This document shows positions 24 to 17,307 of a stretch of DNA of 64,000 nt, one piece after another. Below the pieces are notes generated by a model that saw nothing but the letters and a program-made list of their open reading frames with translations, ran no database searches and was not told the origin of the DNA. How positions within the stretch are numbered: the stretch's first letter is position 1; each line of letters starts with the position of its first letter. This DNA comes from a virus: positions 24,137 to 88,136 of the IMG/VR virus record IMGVR_UViG_3300017950_001860. One strand, given 5' to 3'. A program made the translations under genes and the position numbers.

Positions 24-1943
24 ATGAAAAAAAATGTTTATCTATTTCAACCAGAAATATCTTCAGGCACACGACCCGAACATTATTTACCGTATAGTGT
101 AGGATGTATTTGGGCGTATTGTAATCAATTTGAAGATATACAGAATAATTACGAGTTAAAAGATGTAATATGGAAACGTGAGCGACAAAAAGACGTACTG
201 GATAGAATAGAAGATCCGGTAGTGTGTGCTTTTAGTTGTTATGTATGGAATGAAAATTGGAATCTTACTTGTGCTAAAAGAATTAAAGAACGCTGGCCCG
301 AATGTATCATTGTATTTGGTGGTCCAAGTGTAAACGAAAATTGGACAAAACACGAATTTATCGATGTAGCAATGTTCGGTGAGGGCGAAGAAAAATGGGC
401 AGAGTTGTTACATAAAATTTTAAACAACGAATCTCTAGATAGATATTGGAATAATCCGAGACAAAAAGAAATTGAAGATTATCCTAGTCCGTATGTTACT
501 GGATTTTTTGATAAAATAATTGCTGACAATCCTGGCGTGTTTTGGTTTATGATGTTAGAAACAAATAGAGGATGTCCTTATCATTGTACGTTCTGCGGAT
601 GGGGTGCATCTTATTTAAATAAATTAAAAACTTTTGCCTTTGAAAGAGTACAAGCAGATATAGAATGGGCAATAACTCATAATATACATTGGATCTTTCC
701 TATTGATGCAAATAGCGGTATATTACGAGAACGTGATGTAGAGATAGCACATCTAATACGTAAAGCAATATTAGATCCAAGAAGTAACATTCGACGTGTA
801 ACATTTAACCATGCAAAAAATCTTAATCCAGCGTGTTTTGAAATGGAAAAAATAATTCAAGAATGGACTTATGGTTTAGAAGTTGCTATACAAAGTTTAA
901 ACGTTGACACACTAAAGGCTGTTAAAAGATTTAATATGGGTCTAAATAATATCGAAAAAACCTATGCTGAATGTAATAAACACGGAATACGTCATTATAC
1001 CGAACTAGTTCTAGGATTACCCTATGAAACTAAAGATACATATATTAATGGTCTTATGAAACTTTTAGAGTTAGGACAACATAACAGTGTAAAAACATAT
1101 CTAGCAACTGTTATACCTAATAGCGAAATGGATGACCCTGCATATCAAGAAAAATACGGAATAAAGCTTATACATCCTAAAGACCTATATAGACGTCCTG
1201 AAGAAAGGATTTGGGACGAAGAAGACGGTAGTGAAGAAGTAATTGCAATGGTTAGTGCTACTAATACAGCATCTTCACAAGATCTTGCAGATTGTTTAAG
1301 TTTTAGTTGGGTTTTAACTCAATTTCATTATGCAGGATATAGTCAAATAGTTGCACAATATCTTAACAATATTGCAGGTGTTTCTTATAGAGAATTTTAC
1401 GATTTTATGTACGAAGAAATAAAATCAGACGAATGGATCGGAGGTTTACAAAAAGATGTGGAAGAAATAATGCTTGCATATCTAGTAAACGGAGAAATTC
1501 CTCCAGAGAGTAAGTGGGGAAATATTGTAGCCCTTACGTTACCAGAAAGTTATGGTACTCAAGAGTTCTTTGCTCATAAAGATTATGTGATTAATTTAGT
1601 AATTAAGATTGCAAATAAATTAATTCAGTTACCTAAGTGTATAGAAGATTTACAATATGCATTTATGAAAGACGAAAATAAAGAGTATCCGTACTTTGTA
1701 AATAGTACCGTTGATATTGATAGATGGACCGAATATGATTGCGTATACGAAGTTAGAGATAGATCAAAAGTAAGCCATCAAACAGATCAAATGTATAAAA
1801 AGTTTTTACATAAGACCGATCTATATAATACCACCAATCCCTATAAACACATAAGTACAAGTGAGATTACTAAAGAACAAGAAAAATCATTACAGCCAGT
1901 AAGTTTAGTAGACAGTAAGGTAGAGGAAGGTAGTTTTCATTGA
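24..1943 (+). CDS. Cobalamin-binding-type radical SAM protein
   Basis: Predicted radical SAM enzyme with an N-terminal B12-binding-like domain. Residues about 1-140 resemble the cobalamin-binding fold, with a VFGGPS loop near residue 100 and a FGEGE stretch near 120, as in B12-dependent radical SAM families. The cluster CPYHCTFC (CX3CX2C, about residues 184-191) would bind the 4Fe-4S centre. A long C-terminal part of about 250 residues has no motif I recognise. Substrate unknown; B12 radical SAM enzymes often methylate unactivated carbons. A TTG at 21 is in frame, but the ATG at 24 is the more likely start; no strong ribosome site is visible. It overlaps the next gene by 4 bases, so the two are probably cotranslated. 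Confidence 0.85.
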   Translation: MKKNVYLFQPEISSGTRPEHYLPYSVGCIWAYCNQFEDIQNNYELKDVIWKRERQKDVLDRIEDPVVCAFSCYVWNENWNLTCAKRIKERWPECIIVFGGPSVNENWTKHEFIDVAMFGEGEEKWAELLHKILNNESLDRYWNNPRQKEIEDYPSPYVTGFFDKIIADNPGVFWFMMLETNRGCPYHCTFCGWGASYLNKLKTFAFERVQADIEWAITHNIHWIFPIDANSGILRERDVEIAHLIRKAILDPRSNIRRVTFNHAKNLNPACFEMEKIIQEWTYGLEVAIQSLNVDTLKAVKRFNMGLNNIEKTYAECNKHGIRHYTELVLGLPYETKDTYINGLMKLLELGQHNSVKTYLATVIPNSEMDDPAYQEKYGIKLIHPKDLYRRPEERIWDEEDGSEEVIAMVSATNTASSQDLADCLSFSWVLTQFHYAGYSQIVAQYLNNIAGVSYREFYDFMYEEIKSDEWIGGLQKDVEEIMLAYLVNGEIPPESKWGNIVALTLPESYGTQEFFAHKDYVINLVIKIANKLIQLPKCIEDLQYAFMKDENKEYPYFVNSTVDIDRWTEYDCVYEVRDRSKVSHQTDQMYKKFLHKTDLYNTTNPYKHISTSEITKEQEKSLQPVSLVDSKVEEGSFH

Positions 1944-3118
1944 CACAATTTACAGAACAAGCCATTGATCAAATCTTTAAGTACATTGGTAACAGAAAAA
2001 TATTAGATCCTACAGTTTCACTTTGTCATCATTGCCATAGTCATATTCCTGCCTATAGGATGGAAGAAGACGGAATGATTTATCTAGTTAAATATTGTAA
2101 TGAACATGGGGTTCAAAAATATATAATAGAAACTAGTGCAGAATTTTATTATGGTTTGATGAAATCTATGGAAGATCCTAGTTTTAATATGTCTGGAGGT
2201 TTATTAATAGAAACAACAGACAGATGTAATTTAGATTGTCCCCATTGCTATCATTTGCCTGATAACGATTCAGCAGATGTAAATAGACAAATATTAATAG
2301 ATACAATTAAAACATTTCCCATAGATAAACCAGGAGACGGTATACATAGAATTATATTAGCAGGAGCTGAACCTACTTTACGTCCAGACTTTCCACAACT
2401 GTGTGCAGAAGTAAGCGAAATACACGAAACTCTGCATCCGGCTGTAATGACCAATGGCATTCGATTTAATAATACAAGATGGCTTAAAGAATCAAAAGCA
2501 GCAGGATTAGTTTCTGTAAACGTAGGATTAAATCATCCTTCATACCATAATCATAAAGTAATTAGAAATAAACAAGAAACTGCAATTAACAATATCTTTG
2601 AACAAGATTTAGATATGGGGTACATTAGTTATACAATGATAGAAATGAACGAATTACCTGATATCCTACAAGAAATTATTAATTCACCGTGGCATCCCCA
2701 CACTTTCAGAGTGCGCTTAGGAAGCGAAATAGGCAGAAATGCAACACAGAATGTTTATAGACTAAGCACCTTATATTATGCTGCTAAGGAATGGTGCGAA
2801 AAAAACAATAAAAGCTTTATTGATATAAACCCTGCAGATAACAATATCTACCATATGATGGTAGACATTGAAGGAAAAATAGTAAGACTAATACAATGGT
2901 GTGACGAAACTAATATAGATATGGAAGAATTACGCACAGGGCCTTGGAATTATTTTGTTCCACATGATGGTATAACAAATTTCCTACATCAAATAATACG
3001 TAGAGATACTGCAACTAACAAAGGTTTAGAACTTCCAGATAAAGTTCCTGCTAGATATAATTATAAACCTTACATCGAATACGATAAGTCAAAACCTGAT
3101 TTACTAAAATTGTATTAA
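1940..3118 (+). CDS. Radical SAM protein, MJ0619/Tes-like
   Basis: Radical SAM enzyme with the cluster CNLDCPHC (C96, C100, C103). Before it lies a small Cys module, LCHHC (C29, C32) with KYCNEHG (C53), followed by a Tyr-rich linker. This N-terminal arrangement (two CxxC-like cysteines, then K-x-C-x-x-HG) is what I associate with the MJ0619 methylase/tetraether synthase (Tes) group; that family assignment is from memory, not a search. AGAEPT near residue 141 replaces the usual GGEP motif. Start: TTG at 1940, inside the previous stop (ATTGA), is supported by a strong GAGGAAGG ribosome site at 1922-1930. Substrate unknown; it likely acts together with the upstream B12-type enzyme because the pair is translationally coupled. 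Confidence 0.8.
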   Translation: MTQFTEQAIDQIFKYIGNRKILDPTVSLCHHCHSHIPAYRMEEDGMIYLVKYCNEHGVQKYIIETSAEFYYGLMKSMEDPSFNMSGGLLIETTDRCNLDCPHCYHLPDNDSADVNRQILIDTIKTFPIDKPGDGIHRIILAGAEPTLRPDFPQLCAEVSEIHETLHPAVMTNGIRFNNTRWLKESKAAGLVSVNVGLNHPSYHNHKVIRNKQETAINNIFEQDLDMGYISYTMIEMNELPDILQEIINSPWHPHTFRVRLGSEIGRNATQNVYRLSTLYYAAKEWCEKNNKSFIDINPADNNIYHMMVDIEGKIVRLIQWCDETNIDMEELRTGPWNYFVPHDGITNFLHQIIRRDTATNKGLELPDKVPARYNYKPYIEYDKSKPDLLKLY

Positions 3119-4780: not shown

Positions 4781-5364
4781 CCAATAAGCATAAATCTTTT
4801 ATACTTTTCAGTTTGCAACTCTGCTTTCCATGTAACATAAATTTTACTCATTTCTACGAAGTCTTCTAAGTCAGTAGCACATCTTATATGCTCATCTAAA
4901 TCAAAATAGTCGTTACTCTGTAATACTATCATAGCCTGTTCTGGTATGTTACTTAACCAAGTTTCATACTGCTGTTGATTAATATGTTCACAACTTGTGT
5001 TGATTACTAAATGTGCATCGTACTTGTAGTTGCACATGTCAGCGGTTACTGCTTTGAATTTGCCTTCCATTTCATAACGCTTGTTTACAGTGTTTGCAAT
5101 TTCTTCGCAAGTAGGATCTATATCAACGCTAATAATACTTTTAATATCCGGACGAGCATTAAAAAGAATACTTGCCAACACTCCGTTCCACCCTCCGAAT
5201 ATTACTATATCTTTTAAACCTATGTACCAATTGTTTAAATGATCACTAAGCCAAACTTTACTTCGAACTTGTCCTTTCCAAAAACTTTCGAGTGTGCGAT
5301 ATCTATCTTCGCTATTACGGATTGCATCCATCCAAAACAATACATCTTCTATTTCAACTTTCAT
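4762..5364 (-). CDS. Class I SAM-dependent methyltransferase
   Basis: Last gene of the long minus-strand cassette. Rossmann-type methyltransferase features: motif I IVIFGGWNG (G57, G58, G61), acidic end of strand 2 in VDID (about residues 80-83), TADMCN near 108-113 and VINTSCEH near 120 as the post-II/motif IV region. The product is about 200 residues, a single compact catalytic domain with no obvious target-recognition domain, so a small molecule, sugar or peptide substrate is more likely than DNA. It starts with an ATGA overlap with the upstream radical SAM gene, which suggests linked action. Substrate unknown. Confidence 0.7.
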   Translation of the reverse strand: MKVEIEDVLFWMDAIRNSEDRYRTLESFWKGQVRSKVWLSDHLNNWYIGLKDIVIFGGWNGVLASILFNARPDIKSIISVDIDPTCEEIANTVNKRYEMEGKFKAVTADMCNYKYDAHLVINTSCEHINQQQYETWLSNIPEQAMIVLQSNDYFDLDEHIRCATDLEDFVEMSKIYVTWKAELQTEKYKRFMLIGQKVID

Positions 5365-6377
5365 ATTTTTACCTTAGGAATCTTTGAGTCAGCACTGCTT
5401 ACACAAGTATCAGTAACACATTTAGATGGTGCCTTAAACAGCGTAAAACCGTCTTGTAGTGTGCCTAACGGTTCTTCACTACAACTATAACTCCGCTTTA
5501 CTTCATTACCTCTTATAACGCATCCTTGATATCCTGCATTACAAGTCCATCCTTTAAACTTATTAAAACCAAAGGCATTGAATCGCTCGGCTTGATCAAC
5601 ATTATATATGTTACCTGCATCATCTTGTAATTCTACTTGGTATAAAGGAATTATTTTTTTATATCTATCTGGGATTCTTTGGGGGAATCCTGTTTGCATC
5701 TGTCTAAGTTGGCTTGGTGTATATCCATGTACCACGAAGGAGGCAGTGGGGTCGGATTGTGGTTTGAGAGTGACATTAATACCTCGGGCGGCAAATCGTT
5801 CACAGCGTTCGTAAAGTTCCTCAAACCTTTCTGGCACCATGACTTGATTGATTGTAACAAATACTTCATTATCAGCTAATAAGAGACACTTATCTCCAAA
5901 CTCCTGTTCATTAGCAAACTCAGCGTGGTAACTCGCTGTGATGCTTTTTCTTTGCAGTGTGTCTGTGTTAAGTATCCACTTGTTCCACCATTTCACACCT
6001 GGTGATAGATTTGTGGTCATATGAATACTTTGGTATTCGGGTGCTGTATCCCTACAGTAATGATCTATGATCTCCCCAAAGTATTTATACGCTGTAGGCT
6101 CGCCTCCGCTGAACGAAAAATGAAAATCTGTAAAACCGTTATCTCTTGCCTGTGCCTTGATACTATCTAGTGTGTGTAAGTACAATTCTAGATCTTGGTG
6201 GTCAGGGGTACTAGATCTAGCGTATGGCCAGCAATAACTGCATGAATAATTACAAAATCTAGCCAGTATCCAAGAAACTGTGAAAAGATGGCTCTTTAGG
6301 AGTGTCTTCTGTCCAAATTGGGTAATTTTATCCCAGGGTATTGTTTGAAAATTGTTCATACAACCAATCAAAATCAT
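5361..6377 (-). CDS. Radical SAM protein with C-terminal cysteine-rich segment
   Basis: Radical SAM core with FCNYSCSYCW (C42, C46, C49) and SFSGGEPT near residue 98. The C-terminal part has scattered cysteines (WTCNAGYQGC, SYSCSE, SKCVTDTC) in the place and pattern of SPASM/twitch auxiliary cluster domains. SPASM proteins usually modify peptides or carbohydrates. A second ATG at 6359 is an equally good start; neither has a strong ribosome site. It overlaps the upstream gene and is followed through ATGA by the methyltransferase. Substrate unknown, but a methyltransferase partner and glycan-enzyme neighbours point to a sugar or surface molecule. Confidence 0.8.
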   Translation of the reverse strand: MILIGCMNNFQTIPWDKITQFGQKTLLKSHLFTVSWILARFCNYSCSYCWPYARSSTPDHQDLELYLHTLDSIKAQARDNGFTDFHFSFSGGEPTAYKYFGEIIDHYCRDTAPEYQSIHMTTNLSPGVKWWNKWILNTDTLQRKSITASYHAEFANEQEFGDKCLLLADNEVFVTINQVMVPERFEELYERCERFAARGINVTLKPQSDPTASFVVHGYTPSQLRQMQTGFPQRIPDRYKKIIPLYQVELQDDAGNIYNVDQAERFNAFGFNKFKGWTCNAGYQGCVIRGNEVKRSYSCSEEPLGTLQDGFTLFKAPSKCVTDTCVSSADSKIPKVKI

Positions 6378-7014
6378 TTATTCTACGCAAATCTTGCGGT
6401 GATTGTGCGTGTTTTTCTCCGTATTCTCTGCCTTCTTGGGCGCCGCGTTTTGCTTCATTTCTATAAAGTGCATCTGAAATAGGATTTAGCCACGCCGCCA
6501 ATCGGTCTTCAGTTTCAATATTAAGTTGTCCTTGTATAGACTTACTTGATAATTTTGCACATTCTCTAAATGCACTTTTCCAAGTGTTAAACGGATCTGT
6601 ATTAAATGCAGTAATGTTACTTATTTCGTTCATTACTCGAAAATTGTCGCTAATACTTGTAGTCATGTCAGGTTTACTTGTATCCATGTTTATTGTCATA
6701 CGTCTAGGAAAAAGTTTTACTCCGCCGTAGCCGTACTCTAAACCATTTATAGGATTCTTACTGCGCCAAACGTGTACATGATCTAACTGATGATCTGGAA
6801 CTTCATAATCAAAATTAAAGGAATCTAAAACCTGTGCATCACCGTCAACAATCCAAAACATTTTAGTAAAACATTTCTTTGCAGCAGCAATGTGTGCCTG
6901 ATGTATTCCTTTTACTCCGTCAACAGGCTTAGTCATAGGAAATCGTTCTTTTAGTGCAGCATAATTTTCAGCAGCATTAGGTTCTTTATAACTTATAAAA
7001 ACAATGTCATACAT
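6328..7014 (-). CDS. Putative glycosyltransferase (GT-A-like), paralogue of 20051 gene
   Basis: Begins YDIVFISYKEPNAAENYA and carries IVDGDAQV near residue 57, a DxD-like motif typical of nucleotide-sugar-binding GT-A enzymes. The block LDHVHVW...NPINGLEYGYGG has a clear counterpart in the protein encoded at 20051-20980 (LDHSVVSW...NVINGLVYGNGG), so the two are paralogues, this one about 80 residues shorter at the C-terminus. I infer a transferase acting on a glycan; no direct substrate evidence. The in-frame TTG at 7017 precedes the more likely ATG at 7014. Confidence 0.5.
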   Translation of the reverse strand: MYDIVFISYKEPNAAENYAALKERFPMTKPVDGVKGIHQAHIAAAKKCFTKMFWIVDGDAQVLDSFNFDYEVPDHQLDHVHVWRSKNPINGLEYGYGGVKLFPRRMTINMDTSKPDMTTSISDNFRVMNEISNITAFNTDPFNTWKSAFRECAKLSSKSIQGQLNIETEDRLAAWLNPISDALYRNEAKRGAQEGREYGEKHAQSPQDLRRINDFDWLYEQFSNNTLG

Positions 7015-7294
7015 CAAATATCCAGTCAGCTTTATCGTCTACCCACACATCATAATGAGGTTTTTGCATCCACAAATTATGATACTTAACTCCCCAAGAA
7101 AACAACTGTTCTTTAGTTAATGCTGTCCAGTCTATACCTGAATTAGCTCCTCGGGCTGTCCAATAAACTATTGTATGTCCGTCCATATATAATTCGTTAA
7201 TCTTAGTTATATGTTCGTAGTTAGGTTTTGAGTTATAGTAATCACTGTCTTTAGTGTAGCATATTGTTCCGTCAATGTCAACTACATATTTCAT
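7007..7294 (-). CDS. Small HAD-superfamily phosphatase-like protein
   Basis: Compact 95-residue HAD protein: motif I VVDIDGTI (D6, D8), motif II-like YWTARG with the Thr, and a motif III/IV segment QKPHYDVWVDDKAD providing Lys and the paired Asp. The family dephosphorylates small metabolites; similar short HAD proteins occur in capsule and LPS gene clusters. Beside a HldE-like kinase and nucleotidyltransferase it could remove the phosphate from a sugar bisphosphate before activation, the GmhB role, although it is much shorter than GmhB (about 190 residues). That role is inference. Confidence 0.65.
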   Translation of the reverse strand: MKYVVDIDGTICYTKDSDYYNSKPNYEHITKINELYMDGHTIVYWTARGANSGIDWTALTKEQLFSWGVKYHNLWMQKPHYDVWVDDKADWIFDV

Positions 7295-7650
7295 TTTTGA
7301 CTATCTCCTTTGGCAACTCTGTAATTATCTTCAACACTGTCTGGTGTACTAACCTCTACTAGTGTACCTGCTTCTAAACAAATTATTTGATGCGGTAGCA
7401 ATGGAGGATTATGCCACGAATCTCCTACACGTAATTCATGTACCTCTATATCAGCTGTTCTAGTATCAATCGTACGGACTTCAAAATGTCCTGATAGTAC
7501 ATGCCAAGTTTCGTCCTTTTCTCGATGAAAATGCATACTAAACTTTGCACCTGTGTTAAAATTTAATAACTTACCGCAGTATAAGTCGTTAGTAGCAAAT
7601 ATTAATTCACTACCCCAACCCTTTTCTACATGTCCTTTTAGTCTTTGCAT
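7291..7650 (-). CDS. Cupin-fold protein (sugar-phosphate isomerase-like)
   Basis: Single-domain cupin of 119 residues. Metal-binding motif 1 is MHFHREKDETWHVLSG (His, His, Glu, then His), and motif 2 contains PPLLPHQIICLE. The start (VEKGWGSELIF) and the DETWHV segment recall type II mannose-6-phosphate isomerase/GDP-mannose pathway cupins often found in polysaccharide loci. It is joined by short overlaps to the sugar kinase upstream and the HAD gene downstream, so a sugar-phosphate substrate is likely. Exact reaction unknown. Confidence 0.65.
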   Translation of the reverse strand: MQRLKGHVEKGWGSELIFATNDLYCGKLLNFNTGAKFSMHFHREKDETWHVLSGHFEVRTIDTRTADIEVHELRVGDSWHNPPLLPHQIICLEAGTLVEVSTPDSVEDNYRVAKGDSQK

Positions 7651-8435
7651 ATTTCTTCCAATCTCGGAGCATATACGCCTCTATGTTGTACAGAAATTTG
7701 GCTAGACTTTATTGCAAATTCTATTGCCTTTTCTTTATTATCAGTTAACATATAATATGTAACAAAGGCTGCAAAAAAACTATCTCCTGCACCGGTTACA
7801 TCGGCTATTTCTATTGGTTCTACATGATGAGTAGATGTTGTTTTACCATTTTCTATAACAAGCACATCTTTGTCAGCTCGGGTTACAACTAAACTTTCTG
7901 CTTCTGATATAGCATCATTATACTCATGTTCGTTTATTTTTACTATACAATTTCTAAATCTTGCAAGATCAGGTTTCTTAGTATCAATAAATATCGGAAC
8001 AGTTGCATTATTAGTTATTTCTTCTATTAAATCATAAGGAACTAACCCTTTGTCATAATCTGGTATTACTATACAGTCATATACGCCAGCATACGACAAC
8101 TTTACTTCTTGACTCTTAACCTTTTCATCAACTCTGTAAACTTGCCTATAGGATCCTTTTTCAATATACCTATGTTTGTTTTCTACAACATAAGTTTGCA
8201 AATTAATATTCTTTACGCCCAATGCTTTAAAGTTTTCTGCAACATTGTAACTCATGCCGTATGCACTTTCAGTATACATAAGATCAAAAATAGGCACAGG
8301 TGCTTCTTGGCTTATACGAGTTACTTTGCCGTAATGATTTAGATCACAACAACCGTCACCTATTATTAATACGTTCAATGACCTTTGTTGAAGAATATCT
8401 TGCATCTCTTTCAAAGAAAAACAGTTCTTTTGCAT
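7638..8435 (-). CDS. PfkB-type sugar kinase, HldE kinase-domain-like
   Basis: Resembles the kinase half of HldE/RfaE, which phosphorylates heptose-7-phosphate at C1 in ADP-heptose synthesis. The segment VLIIGDGCCD...RISQEAPVPI (residues about 19-50) corresponds to the GD..LD...RISPEAPVP signature, and ADVTGAGDS (about 211-219) carries the PfkB catalytic Asp218. The usual PGGAANVA loop is altered to AYGMSYNVA, so the sugar specificity may differ. The start is ATG 8435, preceded by AGGAAG; it overlaps the nucleotidyltransferase gene by 80 bases. In HldE both activities sit in one chain; here they are two genes in reversed order. Confidence 0.75.
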   Translation of the reverse strand: MQKNCFSLKEMQDILQQRSLNVLIIGDGCCDLNHYGKVTRISQEAPVPIFDLMYTESAYGMSYNVAENFKALGVKNINLQTYVVENKHRYIEKGSYRQVYRVDEKVKSQEVKLSYAGVYDCIVIPDYDKGLVPYDLIEEITNNATVPIFIDTKKPDLARFRNCIVKINEHEYNDAISEAESLVVTRADKDVLVIENGKTTSTHHVEPIEIADVTGAGDSFFAAFVTYYMLTDNKEKAIEFAIKSSQISVQHRGVYAPRLEEICKD

Positions 8436-8751
8436 ATTCGCTTCCTATAACTCTTTTATTTACATAGTCTGATCCAACTATCATTAAATCTGGACCATAT
8501 TCTTTTACAGTACTTATGAGCTCGTCGTCTGTTCCAAACAAACTAACTTCGTCAATGAATTTAATGCATTCTAGCATACGCCTGCGTATGTCTTGGTTAT
8601 TAACAGGTCTGTCGAAACCTTTGTTTACTTTTATCCTCTCGTCAGTATCTATTGCTACTTTTAAATAGTCGCCTTGGGATTTTGCATATTCAAATAATGC
8701 CATGTGTCCCGGATGCAGTATATCAAAAGTTCCGTTTACAAAAATTTTCAT
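8356..8751 (-). CDS. HldE nucleotidyltransferase-domain-like protein
   Basis: Cytidylyltransferase-fold enzyme that would join a sugar 1-phosphate or polyol phosphate to a nucleotide. It has the HxGH motif in GTFDILHPGH (H13, H16), KGFDRPVNNQDIRRRML in the position of the HldE KG-RPVN segment, and YSSTKVIERI as the C-terminal STT-like motif. These fit the adenylyltransferase half of HldE better than TagD-type glycerol-3-phosphate cytidylyltransferase, but nucleotide choice cannot be read from sequence alone. It lies between the kinase gene and the E1 beta-like gene in one overlapping run. Confidence 0.8.
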   Translation of the reverse strand: MKIFVNGTFDILHPGHMALFEYAKSQGDYLKVAIDTDERIKVNKGFDRPVNNQDIRRRMLECIKFIDEVSLFGTDDELISTVKEYGPDLMIVGSDYVNKRVIGSEYAKELFFFERDARYSSTKVIERINNR

Positions 8752-9269
8752 ACAGAATATAATTGCGGATATTCTAACATTAGATGCATGCCGCCCTTCT
8801 CGTATGCGTTTTTATATACATCAAATATCTGTTCGCTAGATGTAAATTCATAAAATGTTGTGTTTGGACATAACGACTTAAATTGTTCAAAATAATTACC
8901 CTTATGTTGATGTCCGGGATCTAATGGCTCATCGGCGCCTTTGCCTACTCTAATAATAACCGTAGCTGTGCTTCCTGTCATCAGTTCATACTTATCTATA
9001 TGGTTAACAAGTTGATTTGTTGCACTTATTAAGAAGTCCCATCTAGGATAAATGGTAACTACTTTCATTCCGGTCATTGCCATACCTAGACTTATCCCCA
9101 TTTGAACTTCTTCCATTACTGGAGTTTCTATCATTTTATCTTTGTTGACATTATCGAGTGTAGCACTCATTGGATTACCAGGAAAAACAATTTGTTGTCC
9201 GATAAACTTTGTATCATTTTTATCACCTAAAAAGGTCATTGCCTTTGTTAGTTCTTCTTTATAACTCAT
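8748..9269 (-). CDS. ThDP enzyme E1 beta-like subunit (pyrimidine-binding domain only)
   Basis: Matches the pyrimidine-binding domain of 2-oxoacid dehydrogenase E1 beta/transketolase enzymes: ETPVMEEVQMGISLGMAM (about residues 48-65) holds the Glu (E53) that activates thiamine diphosphate, followed by IYPRWDFLISATNQLVNH. The protein is 173 residues, against about 325 for E1 beta; the C-terminal transketolase domain is absent. The partner PP domain is probably the E1 alpha-like protein at 15448-16077, about 6 kb downstream in the same operon. No E2 or E3 subunit is present here, so a carboligase or decarboxylase reaction making an unusual sugar is more likely than energy metabolism. Confidence 0.7.
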   Translation of the reverse strand: MSYKEELTKAMTFLGDKNDTKFIGQQIVFPGNPMSATLDNVNKDKMIETPVMEEVQMGISLGMAMTGMKVVTIYPRWDFLISATNQLVNHIDKYELMTGSTATVIIRVGKGADEPLDPGHQHKGNYFEQFKSLCPNTTFYEFTSSEQIFDVYKNAYEKGGMHLMLEYPQLYSV

Positions 9270-10176
9270 TTTGATAAATTCCTTGTTTTATGTTAACATG
9301 TAGTAACGGCGAAAACGACGGTAAATTAGTAAACGGCTGTAACAAATTTCTATCTTCTATAGTTTTAATAACGTTTTCAGCCATTACATGATGGCACAAC
9401 ATTGATGGATGGTCATCTAAGGGCGGTTGATTAAAATAGTCATAATCGGATCTTATTGTTAATTCTTGATTACCAGGTTGATGTTCGTCCATCATGTCTG
9501 CCATGCTTTGGTATTCTATTCCTTTATAAGTCAATGTCATTAACCGTTCATTCATCCAAGGATTATTTCTAATCCATTCTAAATTTTCATTTGGCCATGA
9601 TAGTAACAGTGTAGGTATACCCTTATCTTCACAAGTGCGTAAAAAATGTTCTATAGGTCTTAGACTATAATCAATATACCATTTTACATAATCATCAGGT
9701 GTTTTGATATCATGTATCTTCATAAAACGTTTTAATTTAGGAATATCATTGTACAATTCATTAAAAGCAATACCCGGTCCTTCAAAAGCAATACAATCTC
9801 TATGAGGTTGAGTAAGTTGCATTACTACTAAACCAATATCTTCTAAAGGAATATCTGTCCTTCCGTGTCCATCCACAAAATTAGTATCACTAAAAAAACA
9901 GGTATTCCACCACTTTAAAATACTCTGATGACTGCCGCCGTTAACTCTATCTACTATTTCTGATGTATTAAAGTAATTTGCAACCAGTCTTGGAAATCTC
10001 ATTCTTGCAGCGTGTTCAATTTGTGTGTGATTTACTAGTCGGTGATCGTAGGTGTTCCACGGTTGTTCAACTATGCTAGGAAGTCCTGTATAATAATACA
10101 GACCTTGTCCCCAAGTAAAACTACATCCTGCAAATAAAATAGATTTATTTACTTTTTCTGTTTTTCGTTTTATCAC
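9259..10176 (-). CDS. SGNH/GDSL-like protein
   Basis: SILFAGCSFTWGQGL near residues 12-26 is the GxSxTxG block with its Ser nucleophile; near the C-terminus DDHPSMLCHHVMAENV gives the Asp/His block, although the Asp is two and not three residues before His. Between them VMQLTQPHRD may be the Asn/Gly-type block. The start is a GTG at 10176, decided by an AGGAGG ribosome site five bases upstream, inside the previous gene. Likely an esterase or acyltransferase-type enzyme acting on a glycan; substrate unknown. Paralogues are at 3137 and 16070. Confidence 0.6.
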   Translation of the reverse strand: MIKRKTEKVNKSILFAGCSFTWGQGLYYYTGLPSIVEQPWNTYDHRLVNHTQIEHAARMRFPRLVANYFNTSEIVDRVNGGSHQSILKWWNTCFFSDTNFVDGHGRTDIPLEDIGLVVMQLTQPHRDCIAFEGPGIAFNELYNDIPKLKRFMKIHDIKTPDDYVKWYIDYSLRPIEHFLRTCEDKGIPTLLLSWPNENLEWIRNNPWMNERLMTLTYKGIEYQSMADMMDEHQPGNQELTIRSDYDYFNQPPLDDHPSMLCHHVMAENVIKTIEDRNLLQPFTNLPSFSPLLHVNIKQGIYQNEL

Positions 10177-10600
10177 TTTGTCCTCCTTTCGGCCAACTTA
10201 TTTCCCAGTCTTTAAAATCTGCTGCTAAACAGTCTACTTTATAATCTTTTCTTCCACCAATTAGTTCTTGTATAATATTCTTACTTGTATTTCTAATTCC
10301 GTTCAGACCATGAGTAAGTTCAAGATTTCCTTCTTTTTCGCCTCTACGAAACTTTGATTCATTTTGCCAGATATGCAAATTCATTTGTGCGCAAACTATT
10401 ATAGCTCTAATAGTTTTTGCATCAACTACTGAATTATTTTCATCTAGTATAAGTTGTATGTCGTGTACAATATCATCAATCTCTTGTGCGTACTCGTCTT
10501 TGTATTCTGGTATAAAGACTTCTTTTAATTGTACAATAGAAAGTCTATCAATTAATTCACTTAGTGTTTGTAAATATCTTCTTTCTGATTTGTATGTCAT
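10145..10600 (-). CDS. Conserved-type helical protein of unknown function
   Basis: I do not recognise this protein with certainty. It is 151 residues, mainly charged and predicted helical by eye (SELIDRLSIVQLKEVFI; NLHIWQNESKFRRGE; NGIRNTSKNIIQELI). The pattern N-L-x-x-W-x-x-E-x-x-x-R followed by an N-x-x-R-N helix is reminiscent of DUF4254-type proteins of polysaccharide clusters, but this is only a visual resemblance. It lies between an SDR epimerase and an SGNH protein and overlaps both, so a role in the same glycan pathway is likely. Confidence 0.5.
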   Translation of the reverse strand: MTYKSERRYLQTLSELIDRLSIVQLKEVFIPEYKDEYAQEIDDIVHDIQLILDENNSVVDAKTIRAIIVCAQMNLHIWQNESKFRRGEKEGNLELTHGLNGIRNTSKNIIQELIGGRKDYKVDCLAADFKDWEISWPKGGQSDKTKNRKSK

Positions 10601-11529
10601 AGGTTCGTAAAACTCCTGTTGTTGTGCGTAACTACAATACTATATGCTTCAATAAGTTGTTTTATACCATAATCTAAATCATACAAAGGTTTCCAACCTA
10701 GTGATTCTATTTTATCATTACTTACAATATAGTTTCGTTTATCAAAGTCTTGTTTAAATTCGTCCTGCTTAATAACTAAACCAGGTATGTGTTCTTTTAT
10801 TTTTTCTGCAAGTTCCATTTTACTTAGATTAGCAGTAGACAATCCTACATTAAATGCTTCGCCTGAACATTTTTCATAGTTTTCTATTACAAACTCAAAT
10901 GCTCTTGCAATGTCTTGTACATGTATATAGTTGCGTTTAAAATGCGCTTCAAACAAAACGAGATATCCATCCGTAAAAGATTTATAAACAAAATCATTTA
11001 CTAACAGGTCTTGGCGCATTCTAGGACTAATTCCAAAAACAGTAGCAAGTCTTAGTGCAACACCGCCGCTAGCAATAACTGTATCTTCTGCGTCACACTT
11101 TGTTTTAGCATACAAACTAAGAGGTTTAAATGGACTTTCTTCTGTGATAATTTCTTCACTAGAACCATACTGGCTGTTTGTGTTAGGCATAATCAATTTC
11201 TGTTTTGCTGTTAACACTTGTGCAATGTGCTTTATCTGTTCGTAGTTAACTTCTACTGTAAGTTGAGGATTATCTTTACATGCTGGCATTCCTACAATAG
11301 CAGCTAAGGGAATTATTACATCGTGATCTTTAACTAATTCTTGCAATAGTTCTTTGTTGCGTACATCGCCTTTTACAAAACAAAAGTTGTCGTTTTTAAA
11401 TAGATGCAAAAGAGACAATTGCTTGTACATAAGATTGTCTAATACTGTAACAGCATATCCTTTAGATAACAAATATTCTGCTGCTGTAGAACCTAAGTAT
11501 CCGGCTCCGCCTGTGATTAATATTTTCAT
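10597..11529 (-). CDS. NAD-dependent sugar epimerase/dehydratase (extended SDR)
   Basis: Extended short-chain dehydrogenase: NAD-binding ITGGAGYLG (residues 5-13), D31 at the end of strand 2, GDVRN near 54, a catalytic Ser near 119, and the Y140-x3-K144 pair (YAKTK). NYIHVQDIARAFEFV and FNVG-S are typical of nucleotide-sugar epimerases such as GalE/WcaG/HldD relatives. It would act on a nucleotide-activated sugar, possibly the product of the HldE-like pair. The last residues (SIVVTHNNRSFTNL) extend past the usual end. It is preceded by AAAGGG and overlaps the next gene by 4 bases. Confidence 0.8.
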   Translation of the reverse strand: MKILITGGAGYLGSTAAEYLLSKGYAVTVLDNLMYKQLSLLHLFKNDNFCFVKGDVRNKELLQELVKDHDVIIPLAAIVGMPACKDNPQLTVEVNYEQIKHIAQVLTAKQKLIMPNTNSQYGSSEEIITEESPFKPLSLYAKTKCDAEDTVIASGGVALRLATVFGISPRMRQDLLVNDFVYKSFTDGYLVLFEAHFKRNYIHVQDIARAFEFVIENYEKCSGEAFNVGLSTANLSKMELAEKIKEHIPGLVIKQDEFKQDFDKRNYIVSNDKIESLGWKPLYDLDYGIKQLIEAYSIVVTHNNRSFTNL

Positions 11530-11534
11530 ATATT

Positions 11535-12632
11535 TTATCCCTTTAAAGCATTTATAAACTTTGATGTTAATACCATATCGTCATCTTGTGTAATCATACG
11601 AATTAATTTTTCATAATTTTTTTCTATTTTTTCACCATAATTGTCTAGTAAATATTTTTGAACATTATGATTAGTTTTATATTTTTCTTTTAGATCGATT
11701 AGATATTTGCAAGTGCTATATATAGAATTTTGTGCGTCATCTTGTGTAATCTCATTTAAATTTTCAGGAAGAAATTTAAAATTTAGTAACCAAAATCCAT
11801 TGTCAATAAGCCATTTATATTGATCTTGAGTCGTATATAGCATAAAAAATATTTTTGCTTTACCATATAACAAACATTTTAATGTTTTTTCCGATATATG
11901 TTGTCTGTGAAATCTACTGTCTGTATCGACACCATCAGCCCAATTGTGACCTACATCGTTACCTATTGTTTCCCATAACATATTAACAACACTAGTTTGG
12001 TAATCTGTATAAGATGATATGTGATTATGTTCCCAAACTCCGAATATTTCATAACTATTAATAACATCAGAAATATTACTACTATGCGATTTGTAAATTT
12101 TAAGATCTTCTTTTAATATTTCTTTCATATTATCATAGATCATATGTCTAGTCTGAGACAATTTTCCGTTTATATGGAAAGGTCTGTGATAACATCCAAC
12201 AAGATTATTTTTTACGTCAGATGGATAAAAATTTAAAAATTCATGACCAAAATAATAATAAAAATAAAATAAAGTTAATCTATAATCATTTATAGCATTT
12301 TTATGATCAAAAGAATATTTTGCGCCAGAAAGATATATATTACCGTTATCTAAAAATCTTTTTATATCATTATCTGAAAAGCTAGGACCTATCTTTTCGC
12401 CAGGAGTTGATAAAACTATTTTACTTTTATTTTCTTGATTAATAACATCAATGCTGTTAGAACATTCTAAGTATTTTTTTTTAGGCCAAGATTTGCCAAA
12501 ATAGAACAAATCATTGTTAAGTTTAACACTAAAGCTACCTCGCTCTCCTACATTAACCTTGCCATTTTTTAAAAAATACATAATGTACCCTATTTCATTC
12601 CAATGGCTATACTTAAAATAATACTTGGACAT
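11535..12632 (-). CDS. Putative glycosyltransferase-like protein (EK-motif family)
   Basis: Not recognised with certainty. The C-terminal half has HISEKTLKCLLYGKAKIFFM followed by a WLIDNGFWLLNF segment, which lines up with TEKVFKPIGNYHPFFFF...LRDLGFKTF of the 17297 gene and SEKTFRPFVNLHPFIHY...LHELGFKTF of the 14134 gene. I infer a shared nucleotide-sugar-binding C-terminal domain, as in GT-B-type fucosyltransferase-like enzymes with an EK motif. This is the most divergent of the three. ATG 12632 overlaps the upstream stop (ATGA); a TTG three bases upstream is less likely. Confidence 0.4.
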   Translation of the reverse strand: MSKYYFKYSHWNEIGYIMYFLKNGKVNVGERGSFSVKLNNDLFYFGKSWPKKKYLECSNSIDVINQENKSKIVLSTPGEKIGPSFSDNDIKRFLDNGNIYLSGAKYSFDHKNAINDYRLTLFYFYYYFGHEFLNFYPSDVKNNLVGCYHRPFHINGKLSQTRHMIYDNMKEILKEDLKIYKSHSSNISDVINSYEIFGVWEHNHISSYTDYQTSVVNMLWETIGNDVGHNWADGVDTDSRFHRQHISEKTLKCLLYGKAKIFFMLYTTQDQYKWLIDNGFWLLNFKFLPENLNEITQDDAQNSIYSTCKYLIDLKEKYKTNHNVQKYLLDNYGEKIEKNYEKLIRMITQDDDMVLTSKFINALKG

Positions 12633-14134
12633 CAATCACCTAATAATTTTCTTTTTAAAGTTTTCTTTCTTGTATTACGCAATTGCTCTACTGCATGAAA
12701 TCCAAATCTTTTTTCTAATAGTCTCTCATATTCTGGTAAGCTATTGTATCTATCCCATGCATAATCTCTAAATCTTAAAACTTCTGCTGCTGACAAATAA
12801 TCTGTTGGCAAGTTTTGTGTTTCATATGCGTGTTGCGAGTAACCTATATACTGGTCAGGAAGTTTTACTCCATTTGCTTTTGACTGTCTATATAACGGCG
12901 ATCCTGGATAAGCCATAGCACAGTAAAAACTAGCCATTTCAGTTAAGTTTTCTTTAGCAAACTGTAAGGTATTTTCCATACTTTTCTGCGTGTCTCCTGG
13001 TAATCCAAATATGTAATTTCCTGCTACTGCAATACCATGCGATTGAATATTTGCAATCAATGTAGTAATGTTTACATCTTCAAACCCTTCTTTGTATATA
13101 ATTTTTCTAGCTTCTATATCAGGATTCTCAATTCCTAATGCGAGCCATTTAACACCTGCACGTCTTAGTATTTCTAAATGCTCTGGTTTACAAGTGTCTA
13201 CTCTAGCATATGCCCATATGTTAAAGTCATAGCCTCGTTCAATGATTAACTCACATATTCTTACAAAATGTCTAGGATTAAGAACAAACAGTTCATCTGC
13301 AAATTTAATATTTTTAACACCTTTAGCTGCTAGTATACCAAGTTGATTAACTGTAAATTCCGGAGACCAAAATCTAAAGCCATTCATATGAGATGCGTCG
13401 AGTTGATCATTGCTAGATCTATTAATAATATTAATCATACAAAAGGAACACTTATACGGACATCCTAAACTAGTATATATAGATGCAAAAGGTTCTTTTA
13501 TTGAATTATTAGTCCAACTATGCCAGCCAGCTGTTCTATACCCACTGTTAGGATCTATTTTATTCCAATTTATTCCAGGCAAGATAATATCAAGGTTGCT
13601 TCTAGAAACAGGAATAGATGCTTCATTTAAATGTACACCTTCTGCATCCCTATATGCTATACCTTTGATGTAGGACAAGGACTTTGTTAAGTCCGAAGCT
13701 TGACTTAAATCGTGTAATGCTTGTACACCTTCATTTGTAAATGCAATGTCAATAAAAGAATGTAACTCAAGTGTTTCGACAGGCAATGCACTTACATGCC
13801 CGCCGACGAATCCTATTTTAATATTAGCATCTAATTGTTTTACAAGTTCTGCAACTTCTATTGCTCCGGTCATATTTTGCGAAGAAGCGCTCGGTTGTGC
13901 TCCATAGACAATAAAAACTGCCATTTCACATCTAGAGTCTTGTATCCTTGCCGCTGACTGTTCTGCAGTCAATCCTAAGACTTCGCAATCTAATATTTCT
14001 GTTCCTATACCTGCTGTTGATAGACTATTTTCTAAGAGTCCTGCCCAAATAGGTGTCTCTATAGCACTATCGGATGATGCTAAAGACTGAAATACTCTTT
14101 TTGCAGAATTTGCATGAATAAGCAAAAATTTCAT
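12632..14134 (-). CDS. Cobalamin-binding-type radical SAM protein
   Basis: B12-binding domain (residues about 1-150, with IGFVGGHVSALP at 107-118) followed by a radical SAM core with LGCPYKCSFC (C225, C229, C232), then FADELFVLNPRHF and NYIFGLPGDT, both usual in the Elp3/MiaB-like SAM barrel. About 500 residues, normal for the class. Such enzymes typically methylate or rearrange carbon skeletons, for example in antibiotic or surface-lipid synthesis. It is coupled by ATGA to the following gene. A perfect sigma70-type promoter is found about 95 bases before the start, inside the previous gene. Substrate unknown. Confidence 0.85.
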   Translation of the reverse strand: MKFLLIHANSAKRVFQSLASSDSAIETPIWAGLLENSLSTAGIGTEILDCEVLGLTAEQSAARIQDSRCEMAVFIVYGAQPSASSQNMTGAIEVAELVKQLDANIKIGFVGGHVSALPVETLELHSFIDIAFTNEGVQALHDLSQASDLTKSLSYIKGIAYRDAEGVHLNEASIPVSRSNLDIILPGINWNKIDPNSGYRTAGWHSWTNNSIKEPFASIYTSLGCPYKCSFCMINIINRSSNDQLDASHMNGFRFWSPEFTVNQLGILAAKGVKNIKFADELFVLNPRHFVRICELIIERGYDFNIWAYARVDTCKPEHLEILRRAGVKWLALGIENPDIEARKIIYKEGFEDVNITTLIANIQSHGIAVAGNYIFGLPGDTQKSMENTLQFAKENLTEMASFYCAMAYPGSPLYRQSKANGVKLPDQYIGYSQHAYETQNLPTDYLSAAEVLRFRDYAWDRYNSLPEYERLLEKRFGFHAVEQLRNTRKKTLKRKLLGD

Positions 14135-15447
14135 TACCGATATAGTTCCTCAATTTTTTCAAACAACTCTATATAAGGATTAGTATCTATAAAAGTTTTA
14201 AGATGTTCTTGATTATATAAAAGTATATCCTTACAATTATAATACAGATCATGCATTGTGTCAAGAGACATATTACCCAGTCTTCTAATTTCTTTCATCA
14301 TTAATTGAACACGCTTCTTCTTATTATCTTCTCTAGTATATGCTTCGTCAATATACGGTTCAAAAGTTTTAAAACCTAACTCGTGCAACAGTTGTATTGC
14401 ACCAATATTTCCGTAGTGTATAAACGGATGTAAATTTACAAATGGTCTAAACGTTTTTTCAGAATTAAAAGGATAATCGTTATTGATAAAATCTGTTTCA
14501 GATACAATACTTACATAACTATCAGTATACCACTGTTTATTAGTTTGGTTTGATGGAAATCCTGTTTTGTCATCAAAATGATTAGTGTCAAGTTCTATTG
14601 GAATCATTGCATTAGCTTTATCAATTACGTCCTTAGGCATATCAGCACCGTAATGTTCATAAAGCCAATTTTGTACAATGTCTGTTTCTTCCTGCATAGG
14701 TGAAATAAAACTTGCTAAACTTTTTTCTAATAAACCTGTACGCACTAATTCGTATAATAGATAATATCTATGCTTTCGATTTGCCCTATTTAAAGTTAAA
14801 AAGTGCTTACTACGTTTAGATCCATCTAGGTCTGCCTCTCTTACTATATCAGCAGTATAATTTAGACTACCAACAAACGGAAAGTTCATCATTTCTTTTG
14901 CACTTTCGTGTGCAAAGAACGTCGAACTTTCGATAACATGCATTTCTGTATTTTTTTGAATATTGCCAGCAACCATAATTAAATTTTTTAAATCCATTCC
15001 ATAAGATCTAAAATAGTCTTCTATTTTTCGTATACCGTCTAACATAATCGGATCATGCGTAAGATTAATTATAATCTTAACCTTTCCTGATAGAATTAAA
15101 TTACGCATCTTAGTTGACAGTGTATCCATAAGAGAATAATGAATATTAGTATTTTTTGTATAACTGCCCTTCCATAAAACTTCAAAATGCAAAATCTCTA
15201 AAGGAAATAAGTAAGTTTCATTATCGTTAACATCTACTTCATCTGGACTTACTTGTTTTAATAGTCCTGGTTTAATTGTATATCGATGAAAATTATCGTG
15301 CCATCTAAAAGATACACCGACAGTCTCTTCTATTCTTTTTCTAATTTCTTCTTCATTAAAAAGATTAGAAGTTTCATATAAACAGGACTGATGTAACCCA
15401 TTAGGTAATGCAATTCCATTTACCCATTTATCAAAAACAACTTTCAT
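14134..15447 (-). CDS. Putative glycosyltransferase-like protein (EK-motif family)
   Basis: Member of the three-protein family with 11535 and 17297. C-terminal signature: SEKTFRPFVNLHPFIHYGN, then LHELGFKTFEPYIDEAYTRED. An upstream block NRKHRYYLLYELVRTGLLEK parallels PRNHRQALLYSLYCEQIL of the 17297 protein. The EK-x-x-(K/R)P pattern plus LGFKTF-P-IDE is common in uncharacterised phage and marine bacterial glycan-cluster proteins, and I infer a glycosyltransferase. The end of the reading frame contains a perfect TTGACA-17-TATAAT pattern. No membrane segment is seen. Confidence 0.45.
   Translation of the reverse strand: MKVVFDKWVNGIALPNGLHQSCLYETSNLFNEEEIRKRIEETVGVSFRWHDNFHRYTIKPGLLKQVSPDEVDVNDNETYLFPLEILHFEVLWKGSYTKNTNIHYSLMDTLSTKMRNLILSGKVKIIINLTHDPIMLDGIRKIEDYFRSYGMDLKNLIMVAGNIQKNTEMHVIESSTFFAHESAKEMMNFPFVGSLNYTADIVREADLDGSKRSKHFLTLNRANRKHRYYLLYELVRTGLLEKSLASFISPMQEETDIVQNWLYEHYGADMPKDVIDKANAMIPIELDTNHFDDKTGFPSNQTNKQWYTDSYVSIVSETDFINNDYPFNSEKTFRPFVNLHPFIHYGNIGAIQLLHELGFKTFEPYIDEAYTREDNKKKRVQLMMKEIRRLGNMSLDTMHDLYYNCKDILLYNQEHLKTFIDTNPYIELFEKIEELYR
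14236..14264 (-). promoter_or_regulatory. Consensus sigma70 promoter inside a gene
   Basis: On the minus strand TTGACA (14264-14259), a 17-base spacer and TATAAT (14241-14236) match the bacterial consensus exactly. The start point would be near 14229, about 95 bases before the ATG of the cobalamin-type radical SAM gene at 14134. It lies within coding sequence, so chance is possible, but all twelve positions and the spacing are ideal. Confidence 0.5.
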
Positions 15448-16077
15448 TTAGAAAACTACCCATTTACCAGTACCGTAATGAGGATATTTAGATTTATAGT
15501 TATAATGTATAACATCATTAGGTAAATCTCTTGTTTTATTCCATGTTGCTACAGTCGGAGTTCTTGTACTAACTTCGTTATCTTCTACTACAAAGTATAA
15601 TGGTAGATCGAAATTACGTGCGTACTTATGGACTTCATAAAATAGCCCAGTTTCAAAACACATATCTCCTATAAAGCACCAAACTTTATCATCAGTTCCG
15701 TTATCTTTGATAGACTTAGCAACACCTAATGCTATTGAAAGAGGTCCACCGACGATTGCACTACTATAGAATTTTTCATCGATGTTACAAACTGTAATAG
15801 ATTTACCATCAAGTATTTCTTGTTCTAACCAATTAGGACTTAGACCTTTTAACAAAGCATGATAATGACTACGCCATGTAGAAAATACCCAGTCGCTTGT
15901 TTTAATTCTTTTAAATATTTCTATCAACGAATCTTCATTACCGTTACTTAAATGAACAGGTCCTCTAATCTTAGCACCTTCCCAATGTTCTATTATTTTA
16001 TTTTCAAACTCAATTAGATCTTGTGCTGTAAAAATGCTTTCTCTCACCTGAGGATACTGTTCTAAATTTTTAATCAT
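15448..16077 (-). CDS. ThDP enzyme E1 alpha-like subunit
   Basis: Resembles 2-oxoacid dehydrogenase E1 alpha, the subunit binding the diphosphate of thiamine diphosphate. The ThDP motif reads IGDMCFETGLFYEVHKYA...VVEDN (G137, D138, then D166-N167), with Met in place of the usual third Gly. STWRSHYHALLKG (66-78) and SSAIVGGPLSIALGVA (105-120) match the E1 alpha active-site stretches. It is 209 residues against about 330-370 for typical E1 alpha, so it is a minimal PP domain. The likely partner is the E1 beta-like protein at 8748-9269. ThDP lyase chemistry on a sugar or keto acid is inferred. Confidence 0.7.
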   Translation of the reverse strand: MIKNLEQYPQVRESIFTAQDLIEFENKIIEHWEGAKIRGPVHLSNGNEDSLIEIFKRIKTSDWVFSTWRSHYHALLKGLSPNWLEQEILDGKSITVCNIDEKFYSSAIVGGPLSIALGVAKSIKDNGTDDKVWCFIGDMCFETGLFYEVHKYARNFDLPLYFVVEDNEVSTRTPTVATWNKTRDLPNDVIHYNYKSKYPHYGTGKWVVF

Positions 16078-16780
16078 AATATTTTCCTAAATGACTATGT
16101 ATGTGTTCTGCTACTACTCTGTGACCATCGACTGAAAAATGTGAATCATCTATAGGATAATTTGGTAAGTCTAATAATCTATATTTATTAGTTGAAATAT
16201 ATCGACATAAATCAATGTTGTAATGAATGTTATCAAATGTCATCATGGTTTTACTTTCATCAGGCACTTCGTCTGCATCGTACAGAATCCACAATACATC
16301 AATTTTTTTGTTTTGTAGATATACAGTATATAAGTCAATATTTTTCATAAGGGTATTGAATACGACTGTTCTGTTGTAAAAATATTTTTGATACAAGGTG
16401 TAGTATCGCTTGATATTTTTATCGTCAATTTCTAAATTGTTAACTGTAACAAAATCTTCTATTTGATTTGAGTAAATCATTATACGTGGCAACAGAGTTG
16501 TTTGCATAGTAACTAGAATATTGCTACCATCCTTAATATCTTTTGTGTGCTCATATACGTTCTTAAAAATTAAATCGTTCGATGCTCTTGGAACTCCGTG
16601 ATTTTCTACTTCACAATTTAGCATTTTTGCTAGTTGTGTAGGATATGCATTGGCATACATATAATTTCCATATTCATTAGGAGGATGCTTTTTTAACCAC
16701 CTATGATACTCTGGTGAATTAAGGCCTGCGCCTTGTGTAAAACTACAACCAAAAGATAAAAGTTTATCGTATTGTTTCAT
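16070..16780 (-). CDS. SGNH/GDSL-like hydrolase
   Basis: The best conserved of the three SGNH proteins here. LLSFGCSFTQGAGL (about residues 8-21) holds the Ser block, and IDDSHFSVDGHRVVAEHI near the C-terminus holds a proper D-x-x-H. NILVTMQTT in the middle may supply the oxyanion block. About 236 residues, normal for single-domain SGNH esterases. Likely deacylates or acylates a sugar; no signal peptide, so cytoplasmic. It is joined by overlaps to the E1 alpha-like gene downstream and to the RmlC-like gene upstream. Confidence 0.65.
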   Translation of the reverse strand: MKQYDKLLSFGCSFTQGAGLNSPEYHRWLKKHPPNEYGNYMYANAYPTQLAKMLNCEVENHGVPRASNDLIFKNVYEHTKDIKDGSNILVTMQTTLLPRIMIYSNQIEDFVTVNNLEIDDKNIKRYYTLYQKYFYNRTVVFNTLMKNIDLYTVYLQNKKIDVLWILYDADEVPDESKTMMTFDNIHYNIDLCRYISTNKYRLLDLPNYPIDDSHFSVDGHRVVAEHIHSHLGKYYD

Positions 16781-17307
16781 CTATCTCTTTCCTGTAAAAT
16801 AGGATCTGTTGTAGGCCACTCTATTCTAAATCGAGGATCGTTCCACTTAATAACACCTTGATTCTTTTCGTCTACATAGTCGCCTTCGTAGAACATATTA
16901 TAATGGAATATACAATCTGTTAGTGCATAGTGACCGTTAGCGTACCCAGGAGGTATTAAAACTTGATCTCTAGTCTTTTCTGATAGTATATAAGATTCCC
17001 ACTTACCTGTTTTAAGATCAAGAACAACTAAATAGATATCACCTACAAGAGCTTGTACAAGTTTATAAGTCTTATCATCATAATGCAAGCCTCTTAATAC
17101 ACCTTTGTAAGACTTACTAAATCTTCCGTGAACTTCGCTGTCTTTAGAAATAATTTCTGTTACAGGATGGTCGCTAGAATGATAAGTTGTAAAAATTTCT
17201 CCTCTGTATTCACGATATACAGAAGGTTTATAAATTGGAACTTGTTTGCCAAACGTATTAAGATGCGAAACTATCCATTCGTTCCATTTTTGATTTTTAT
17301 AGCTCAT
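16777..17307 (-). CDS. dTDP-4-dehydrorhamnose 3,5-epimerase-like protein
   Basis: RmlC/RfbC-type cupin epimerase that inverts carbons of a 4-keto-6-deoxy nucleotide sugar. It shows KGVLRGLHYD (about residues 68-77, with R72 and catalytic-type H75), K82 in YKLVQ, GDIYLVVLDL, and LIPPGYANGHYALTD (117-131), all in the family order. Length 176 residues is normal for RmlC. No RmlA, RmlB or RmlD is in the window, so the substrate is either host-made or a product of other cassette enzymes such as the SDR protein at 10597. Confidence 0.85.
   Translation of the reverse strand: MSYKNQKWNEWIVSHLNTFGKQVPIYKPSVYREYRGEIFTTYHSSDHPVTEIISKDSEVHGRFSKSYKGVLRGLHYDDKTYKLVQALVGDIYLVVLDLKTGKWESYILSEKTRDQVLIPPGYANGHYALTDCIFHYNMFYEGDYVDEKNQGVIKWNDPRFRIEWPTTDPILQERDR

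Follow-up and report, generated by a model that had tools for sequence, protein, structure and literature searches.

A translationally coupled TokK-like and compact Tes-like radical SAM gene pair beside the tail genes of a probable jumbo phage

TokK, which methylates C6 of the carbapenem asparenomycin, and the related CysS place one tryptophan (TokK W76, CysS W75) beneath the cobalt of their cobalamin (PMC9692996, PMC12846815), with a second, TokK W215, bridging S-adenosylmethionine (SAM) and cobalamin (PMC9692996). The tetraether synthase Tes (GDGT-MAS, MJ0619) has a rubredoxin site, C9X2C12X20C33X2H36, and a C-terminal cluster to which the S-C intermediate is bound during lipid coupling, the same work having moved MJ0619 from pterin to lipid chemistry (PMC9433317). 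Among viruses, the tail-fibre ‘host recognition clusters’ of pelagimyophages are reported to include radical SAM cassettes (PMC7029224). Here we describe a 64,000-nucleotide window, bases 24137-88136 of the linear-class IMG/VR record IMGVR_UViG_3300017950_001860 (88136 bases; such records are often fragments), whose first two genes, g01 and g02, encode a TokK-like and a compact Tes-like protein, respectively (Table 1).

The assignment of g01 is consistent across sequence, profile and predicted fold. A sequence search of the PDB returned TokK (E=1e-73) and CysS (6e-32), a profile match to TokK reached 4.6e-83, and the AlphaFold (AF2) model (pLDDT 87.6) matched TokK over its full length in Foldseek (E=1.7e-43, TMq 0.82), with CysS ranked next and the remaining B12 enzymes at 1e-12 or worse. 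Both relevant Pfam models fall under their cut-offs (B12-binding, 4e-6 and 27.1 bits against 32.1; Radical_SAM, 7.5e-5), but despite this sub-threshold score the whole-length overlay on TokK places a cobalamin-binding domain at the N-terminus. The two tryptophans that aligned with those of TokK, W75 and W193, and the three cluster cysteines, C184, C188 and C191, are invariant in all 31 viral homologues compared. At 155.1 bits against a cut-off of 700 for the NCBIfam KedN5 model (NF033712), g01 is a relative of KedN5 rather than KedN5 itself. As read from its sequence, then, g01 has the cofactor-binding sites expected of a methylcobalamin-using radical methylase, and together with the model this makes it very probably a TokK/CysS-type radical SAM methylase that depends on cobalamin.

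In g02, residues 22-63 match Pfam Zn_ribbon_HMPTM (PF23545; 1.8e-13, 50.2 bits, cut-off 27), a domain that in 14 control genomes was matched only in M. jannaschii, S. acidocaldarius and M. acetivorans, and residues 90-211 match Radical_SAM (PF04055; 2.5e-15, 57.5 bits). The corresponding motifs, CX2CX20CX2H and CX3CX2C, do not vary across the 37 aligned homologues, the spacing of 20 (identical to that of Tes) being kept in every one, and are thus not a product of chance. Tes is also the best PDB match by sequence (1.1e-18) and by profile (8e-32), and in fold it leads every other solved structure by nine orders of magnitude: the AF2 model (pLDDT 90.8, pTM 0.90) matched Tes (7tol) at 9.6e-17 in Foldseek, followed by MoaA at 4.9e-8. 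A structure search of BFVD gave no close relative (best E 1.9e-7), and the best NCBIfam model, TrsS (NF045646), scored 77.3 bits against a cut-off of 490.

What g02 has kept of Tes is, however, only a part. In a profile alignment to 7tol, the stretch that holds the N-terminal auxiliary [4Fe-4S] cluster of Tes (CX3CX2C plus His) is absent, and none of the 37 homologues has a second CX3CX2C in the segment that separates the rubredoxin motif from the radical SAM motif. The C-terminal [4Fe-4S] site of Tes, with its labile Met, is likewise not reproduced, no cysteine being invariant past the radical SAM motif; three post-motif columns hold cysteine in 31, 31 and 23 of the 37 sequences, and the window protein has only two of these. 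The main g02 clade may possess a partial C-terminal cluster site. Because that ligand set is incomplete, the coupling mechanism of Tes is not expected here, and because the auxiliary cluster motifs are absent or incomplete, we consider g02 a compact Tes-like enzyme and not a tetraether synthase (the NCBIfam Tes model scores 65 bits, cut-off 450). Its motifs provide for a single radical SAM cluster plus an iron site of the rubredoxin type, and from these and the model we predict, with high confidence, a working, non-tetraether relative of Tes. Since Tes chemistry has been explained by two auxiliary clusters plus the rubredoxin iron, a widespread viral family in which the iron site is retained and the remainder lost would offer a ready-made way to test the role of that iron.

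The original prediction, made from the DNA alone, had proposed a B12-type radical SAM enzyme with CX3CX2C, translationally coupled to a protein with the front module of MJ0619 and Tes. The TokK matches in sequence, profile and fold bear out its first half; PF23545, the motif spacing and the Tes fold bear out its second; and profile searches did not place g02 in an unrelated radical SAM family without the front Cys module. The two reading frames overlap as claimed, by TTGA, and an overlap of 1, 4 or 13 nucleotides is kept in all ten lineages that carry the pair. Less general is the strong ribosome-binding site to which the prediction also pointed: it is present in the window and in its close relative L004 and, among 11 junctions compared, in no other lineage. 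Against relatives at 96-98% identity (L004 and L005), the ratio of nonsynonymous to synonymous substitution (dN/dS) is approximately 0.04-0.05 for g01 and 0.04 for g02, so both are maintained as proteins by purifying selection.

Table 1. Positions, within the window, of the gene pair, its diagnostic sites and two neighbouring genes.
Feature	Positions	Strand	Detail or basis
g01	24..1943	+	ATG start, 639 aa
g02	1940..3118	+	TTG start, 392 aa
TTGA overlap (g02 start and g01 stop)	1940..1943	+	sequence
AGGAAGG ribosome-binding site ahead of g02 TTG start	1924..1930	+	sequence
g01 W75 codon (counterpart of TokK W76 / CysS W75)	246..248	+	alignment
g01 cluster motif C184-X3-C188-X2-C191 and W193 (TokK W215 position)	573..602	+	alignment
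g02 rubredoxin-like site C29-X2-C32-X20-C53-X2-H56	2024..2107	+	alignment
g02 radical SAM cluster motif C96-X3-C100-X2-C103	2225..2248	+	alignment
g05, methyltransferase-like, 200 aa	4762..5364	-	motifs by eye
g06, third radical SAM enzyme, 338 aa, overlaps g05	5361..6377	-	Pfam Radical_SAM 1.1e-11

Profile-guided scans of IMG/VR yielded 113 relatives of g02 and 331 of g01, of which the best 80 of each were kept; the counts for g02 rest on 112 open reading frames (ORFs), which at 95% identity form at least 52 clusters. A g01 relative lies immediately upstream in ten of these. In two of the ten (L036 and L043) the upstream gene comes from another TokK-like subfamily, 39-40% identical to the g01 of the window, and tandem TokK-like pairs without g02 are present in other large viral contigs. 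Because the two genes are coupled, and because that coupling recurs with different g01 subfamilies, we suggest that their products work on one intermediate or on successive ones, and it is probable that they act in one pathway.

In the g02 tree, three sampled cellular Tes-like proteins separate from all viral members with full SH-aLRT support, and one cellular g02-like protein (L159) joins the viral members on a branch that is long and of uncertain placement. Among 274 Gammaproteobacteria, a profile search returned mostly generic radical SAM proteins, some full Tes-like proteins and a single compact g02-like one, L159, a type of gene found in one of eight genomes of its order. The one match from a GTDB scan with the g02 alignment, in a gammaproteobacterial metagenome-assembled genome (MAG; L158), was rejected as an orthologue, being partial, 25% identical and confined to the radical SAM core. 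In the INPHARED phages, tblastn gave nothing related to g02 and, for g01, no more than two partial matches at 24-25%. Locus L163 (G198:C98, 787-4774), from a gammaproteobacterial MAG, holds a cellular compact g02-like gene adjoining, by eye, a 718-aa M50/HlyD-type secretion-like membrane protein and a GNAT-like gene, whilst members of a more distant viral clade (L084-L091; for example L087:8995-11086, L085 and L089) carry two or three divergent tandem g02 paralogues, some of them overlapping.

Upstream of the window start (locus L028) lie a class III aminotransferase (close relatives, Pfam 3e-44) and an amidinotransferase homologue. Both occur within 6 kb in eight of eight paired lineages with full flanks and in none of 24 unpaired ones (Fisher 1e-7, a value that overstates independence, as most paired g02 genes belong to one clade). 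The amidinotransferase homologue (L028:9873-10943) matches HsvA (4.2e-30) and inosamine-phosphate amidinotransferase (1.6e-29), as well as AGAT and SxtG; its Cys motif is kept in 43 and its HID motif in 45 of 45 homologues. Two genes downstream of the pair show a looser association, counted over the same distance and lineages: g05, which has no Pfam match, accompanies five of eight paired and one of 24 unpaired lineages, and g06 five of eight and two of 24. In related phages a Trp halogenase (Pfam 3e-93; L010:3376-4944, L011:5092-6678) lies 7 kb or less from the pair; none is present in the 10 kb around the pair in the lineage of the window.

The source is a T4-like phage, and probably a jumbo one: the window encodes a late sigma factor (phrog_12791, 7.6e-81), a large baseplate wedge protein (phrog_10646, 3.2e-286), gp53-like and gp25-like baseplate proteins and a tail collar protein, the SbcD-like protein and one virion protein have their nearest matches in jumbo phages such as PA5oct and Atu_ph07 (50% and 35-38%), and a relative of the radical SAM island was found in a contig of 265,680 bases. 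That island adjoins the tail collar and baseplate genes. The 88-kb record holds 14 Radical_SAM matches, 13 of them above the Pfam cut-off, which gives a measure of how much such chemistry one phage can carry; among these matches are g17 (12632-14134) and four further B12-type radical SAM genes, of which one is at L027 415-2034 and the others form a tandem of three at L028 5508-9876. The record also has several tandem 2-oxoglutarate (2OG)-type oxygenase-like ORFs (by eye) from L027 10713 to L028 2294. On the minus strand of the tail region, at 32980-47151, is an open reading frame of 4723 codons.

Synthesising these observations, the explanation that we favour as a whole, with slightly more doubt than belief, is a tail-adjacent phage tailoring pathway that combines C-methylation with radical modification of an amine- or guanidine-bearing group. 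Going by the neighbouring genes, the class III pyridoxal phosphate (PLP) aminotransferase might install an amine, on which the amidinotransferase-family enzyme would act, perhaps adding a guanidine. Homology argues strongly for the following step, in which g01 would spend one SAM on methylcobalamin and a second on the 5'-deoxyadenosyl radical, methylating at least one unactivated carbon of this intermediate. From its Tes-like fold, g02 may then abstract a hydrogen from the same or a related intermediate, with a desaturation, a cyclisation or one C-C step as the outcome and no cluster-bound S-C intermediate like that of Tes along the way, and the finished group might be attached to a surface structure, be it the phage tail, a glycan or the host envelope. 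The parts of this scheme differ in strength. That the pathway contains an amine or guanidine intermediate, to which the two neighbours point less firmly than the coupling points to a common pathway, we judge to be evenly balanced; surface decoration as the end use is suggested most faintly, by the position beside tail genes and by the radical SAM cassettes reported for pelagimyophages (PMC7029224), and is somewhat less likely than not.

Several observations weigh against this scheme. Most g02 clusters lack g01, and about two changes on the g02 tree suffice to account for the pairing; between L017 and L010 the g01 proteins are 71% and the g02 proteins 90% identical, and as identities disagree in this way across lineages, the two genes are not always co-inherited. 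In two loci (L059:9986-11161 and L068:10001-11167) a lone g02 homologue sits between virion genes and a terminase-like gene (the terminase large subunit gene, named by eye), away from other genes of the radical SAM island. Two unpaired loci with short flanks, L045 and L050, carry both amidinotransferase and aminotransferase, which therefore do not partner g01 exclusively. Moreover, 44 of 45 phage amidinotransferase homologues have His (WHTAT) at a position, presumably D254 of AGAT in the catalytic triad numbering, where HsvA and the inosamine-phosphate enzyme have Asp; we dropped the assumption of a canonical amidinotransferase once the alignment revealed this change, as the protein may catalyse another reaction or none. 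For the g01/g02 pathway, neither a substrate nor a product nor an enzyme of attachment was identified.

Modification of virion or RiPP-like (ribosomally synthesised and post-translationally modified) peptides, in which radical SAM enzymes, 2OG oxygenases, halogenase and methyltransferases would alter the side chains of a structural protein or peptide, draws on several observations: the mix of B12 methylases, twitch-type radical SAM enzymes and oxygenases is RiPP-like, with the proteusin enzymes as an analogue and a daptide-like aminotransferase in the toolkit, the island lies next to tail genes, and two B12 radical SAM enzymes, Mmp10 and MgmA, have residues of proteins as their methylation targets (PMC9692996). 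We nonetheless consider it distinctly unlikely, since g01 is nearest to TokK and CysS, which act on small (pantetheinylated) intermediates, Pfam scans gave no peptide-recognition domain, and no precursor peptide was identified, though no systematic search for one was made. Those same relatives of g01, with KedN5 and the relatives of the amidinotransferase and aminotransferase, come from natural-product pathways, and a Trp halogenase lies within 6 kb in four of the eight paired lineages with full flanks, all of which could suit a soluble antibiotic-, siderophore- or toxin-like product released into the host or at lysis; the tail-adjacent location, and the lack of any thiolase, nonribosomal peptide synthetase, polyketide synthase, peptide ligase or exporter among the annotated genes around the pair, make this more improbable still.

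The original prediction had offered a lipid, cofactor or glycan as target. A lipid role, in which g02 would couple or modify acyl chains that g01 methylates, draws on Tes as the closest solved structure, on B12 radical SAM lipid enzymes such as HpnR, and on fatty-acid desaturase homologues beside g02 in some unpaired loci. It is weakened by the deleted N-cluster stretch, the incomplete C-cluster cysteines, the low Tes-model score and shorter length of g02 and the natural-product substrates of g01's relatives, and it fits poorly with aminotransferase and amidinotransferase partners; a lipid substrate for the pair is not supported, and we rate this explanation very improbable. The pterin precedent for a cofactor falls with the reassignment of MJ0619, whilst the conserved neighbours suggest an amine or guanidine instead. 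As for glycans, sugar genes at 7-24 kb were considered as the pathway of the pair and rejected as a conserved link, as they adjoin the pair solely in the lineage of the window. This sugar-nucleotide island (7007-17307) includes an NAD epimerase, a dTDP-sugar isomerase, a heptose-kinase-like gene (7638-8435), a nucleotidyltransferase-like ORF (8356-8751), as well as separate genes for the E1 and transketolase halves (15448-16077 and 8748-9269). Least likely, to our mind, is that the pair makes a hypermodified base in phage DNA: base hypermodification with radical SAM and PLP enzymes is known in phages, but in the annotation of the (possibly incomplete) 88-kb record we noticed no gene for a thymidylate synthase-like protein, a base kinase or a glycosylase.

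Returning to the tail-adjacent tailoring pathway, a bolder form of it, unlikely on present evidence, is that aquatic jumbo phages possess a multi-step radical pathway of their own, made up of aminotransferase, amidinotransferase-like, TokK-like and compact Tes-like enzymes, more radical SAM enzymes, oxygenases and sometimes a halogenase, which would yield a new C-methylated, nitrogen-rich group on the virion or host surface and a new reaction for g02. A coupled TokK-type methylase in phages brings the chemistry of specialised metabolites into virus biology, and the pair would supply named, testable genes for the radical SAM islands of T4-like aquatic phages, which lack an explanation. Literature searches found no earlier description of a coupled TokK-like/Tes-like phage pair (papers outside those searches might hold one), and nothing on phage radical SAM enzymes with an amidinotransferase or Trp halogenase.

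Set beside the described systems, this coupling of a TokK-like methylase to a compact Tes-like enzyme of viral origin is a new variant. With TokK, CysS and KedN5, g01 shares the full-length fold, the cobalamin domain at its N-terminus, CX3CX2C and the tryptophans under the cobalt and between SAM and cobalamin, but it is only 24-26% identical over the fold, has its own C-terminal tail, and is phage-borne with a Tes-like partner. All 37 aligned members of the g02 family match the TrsS radical SAM (seleno)protein family (best 1e-31), for which we know of no assigned function. With Tes, g02 shares the order of an N-terminal rubredoxin-like CX2CX20CX2H site followed by the radical SAM barrel; it differs in its length (392 residues against 526), in having no N-terminal [4Fe-4S] stretch and in its incomplete set of C-terminal cluster ligands. 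The pelagimyophages, likewise T4-like aquatic phages, also have radical SAM genes, set in a hypervariable island that contains tail-fibre and lipopolysaccharide genes, and the available sections of that report name neither these families nor a coupled TokK-like/Tes-like pair (PMC7029224).

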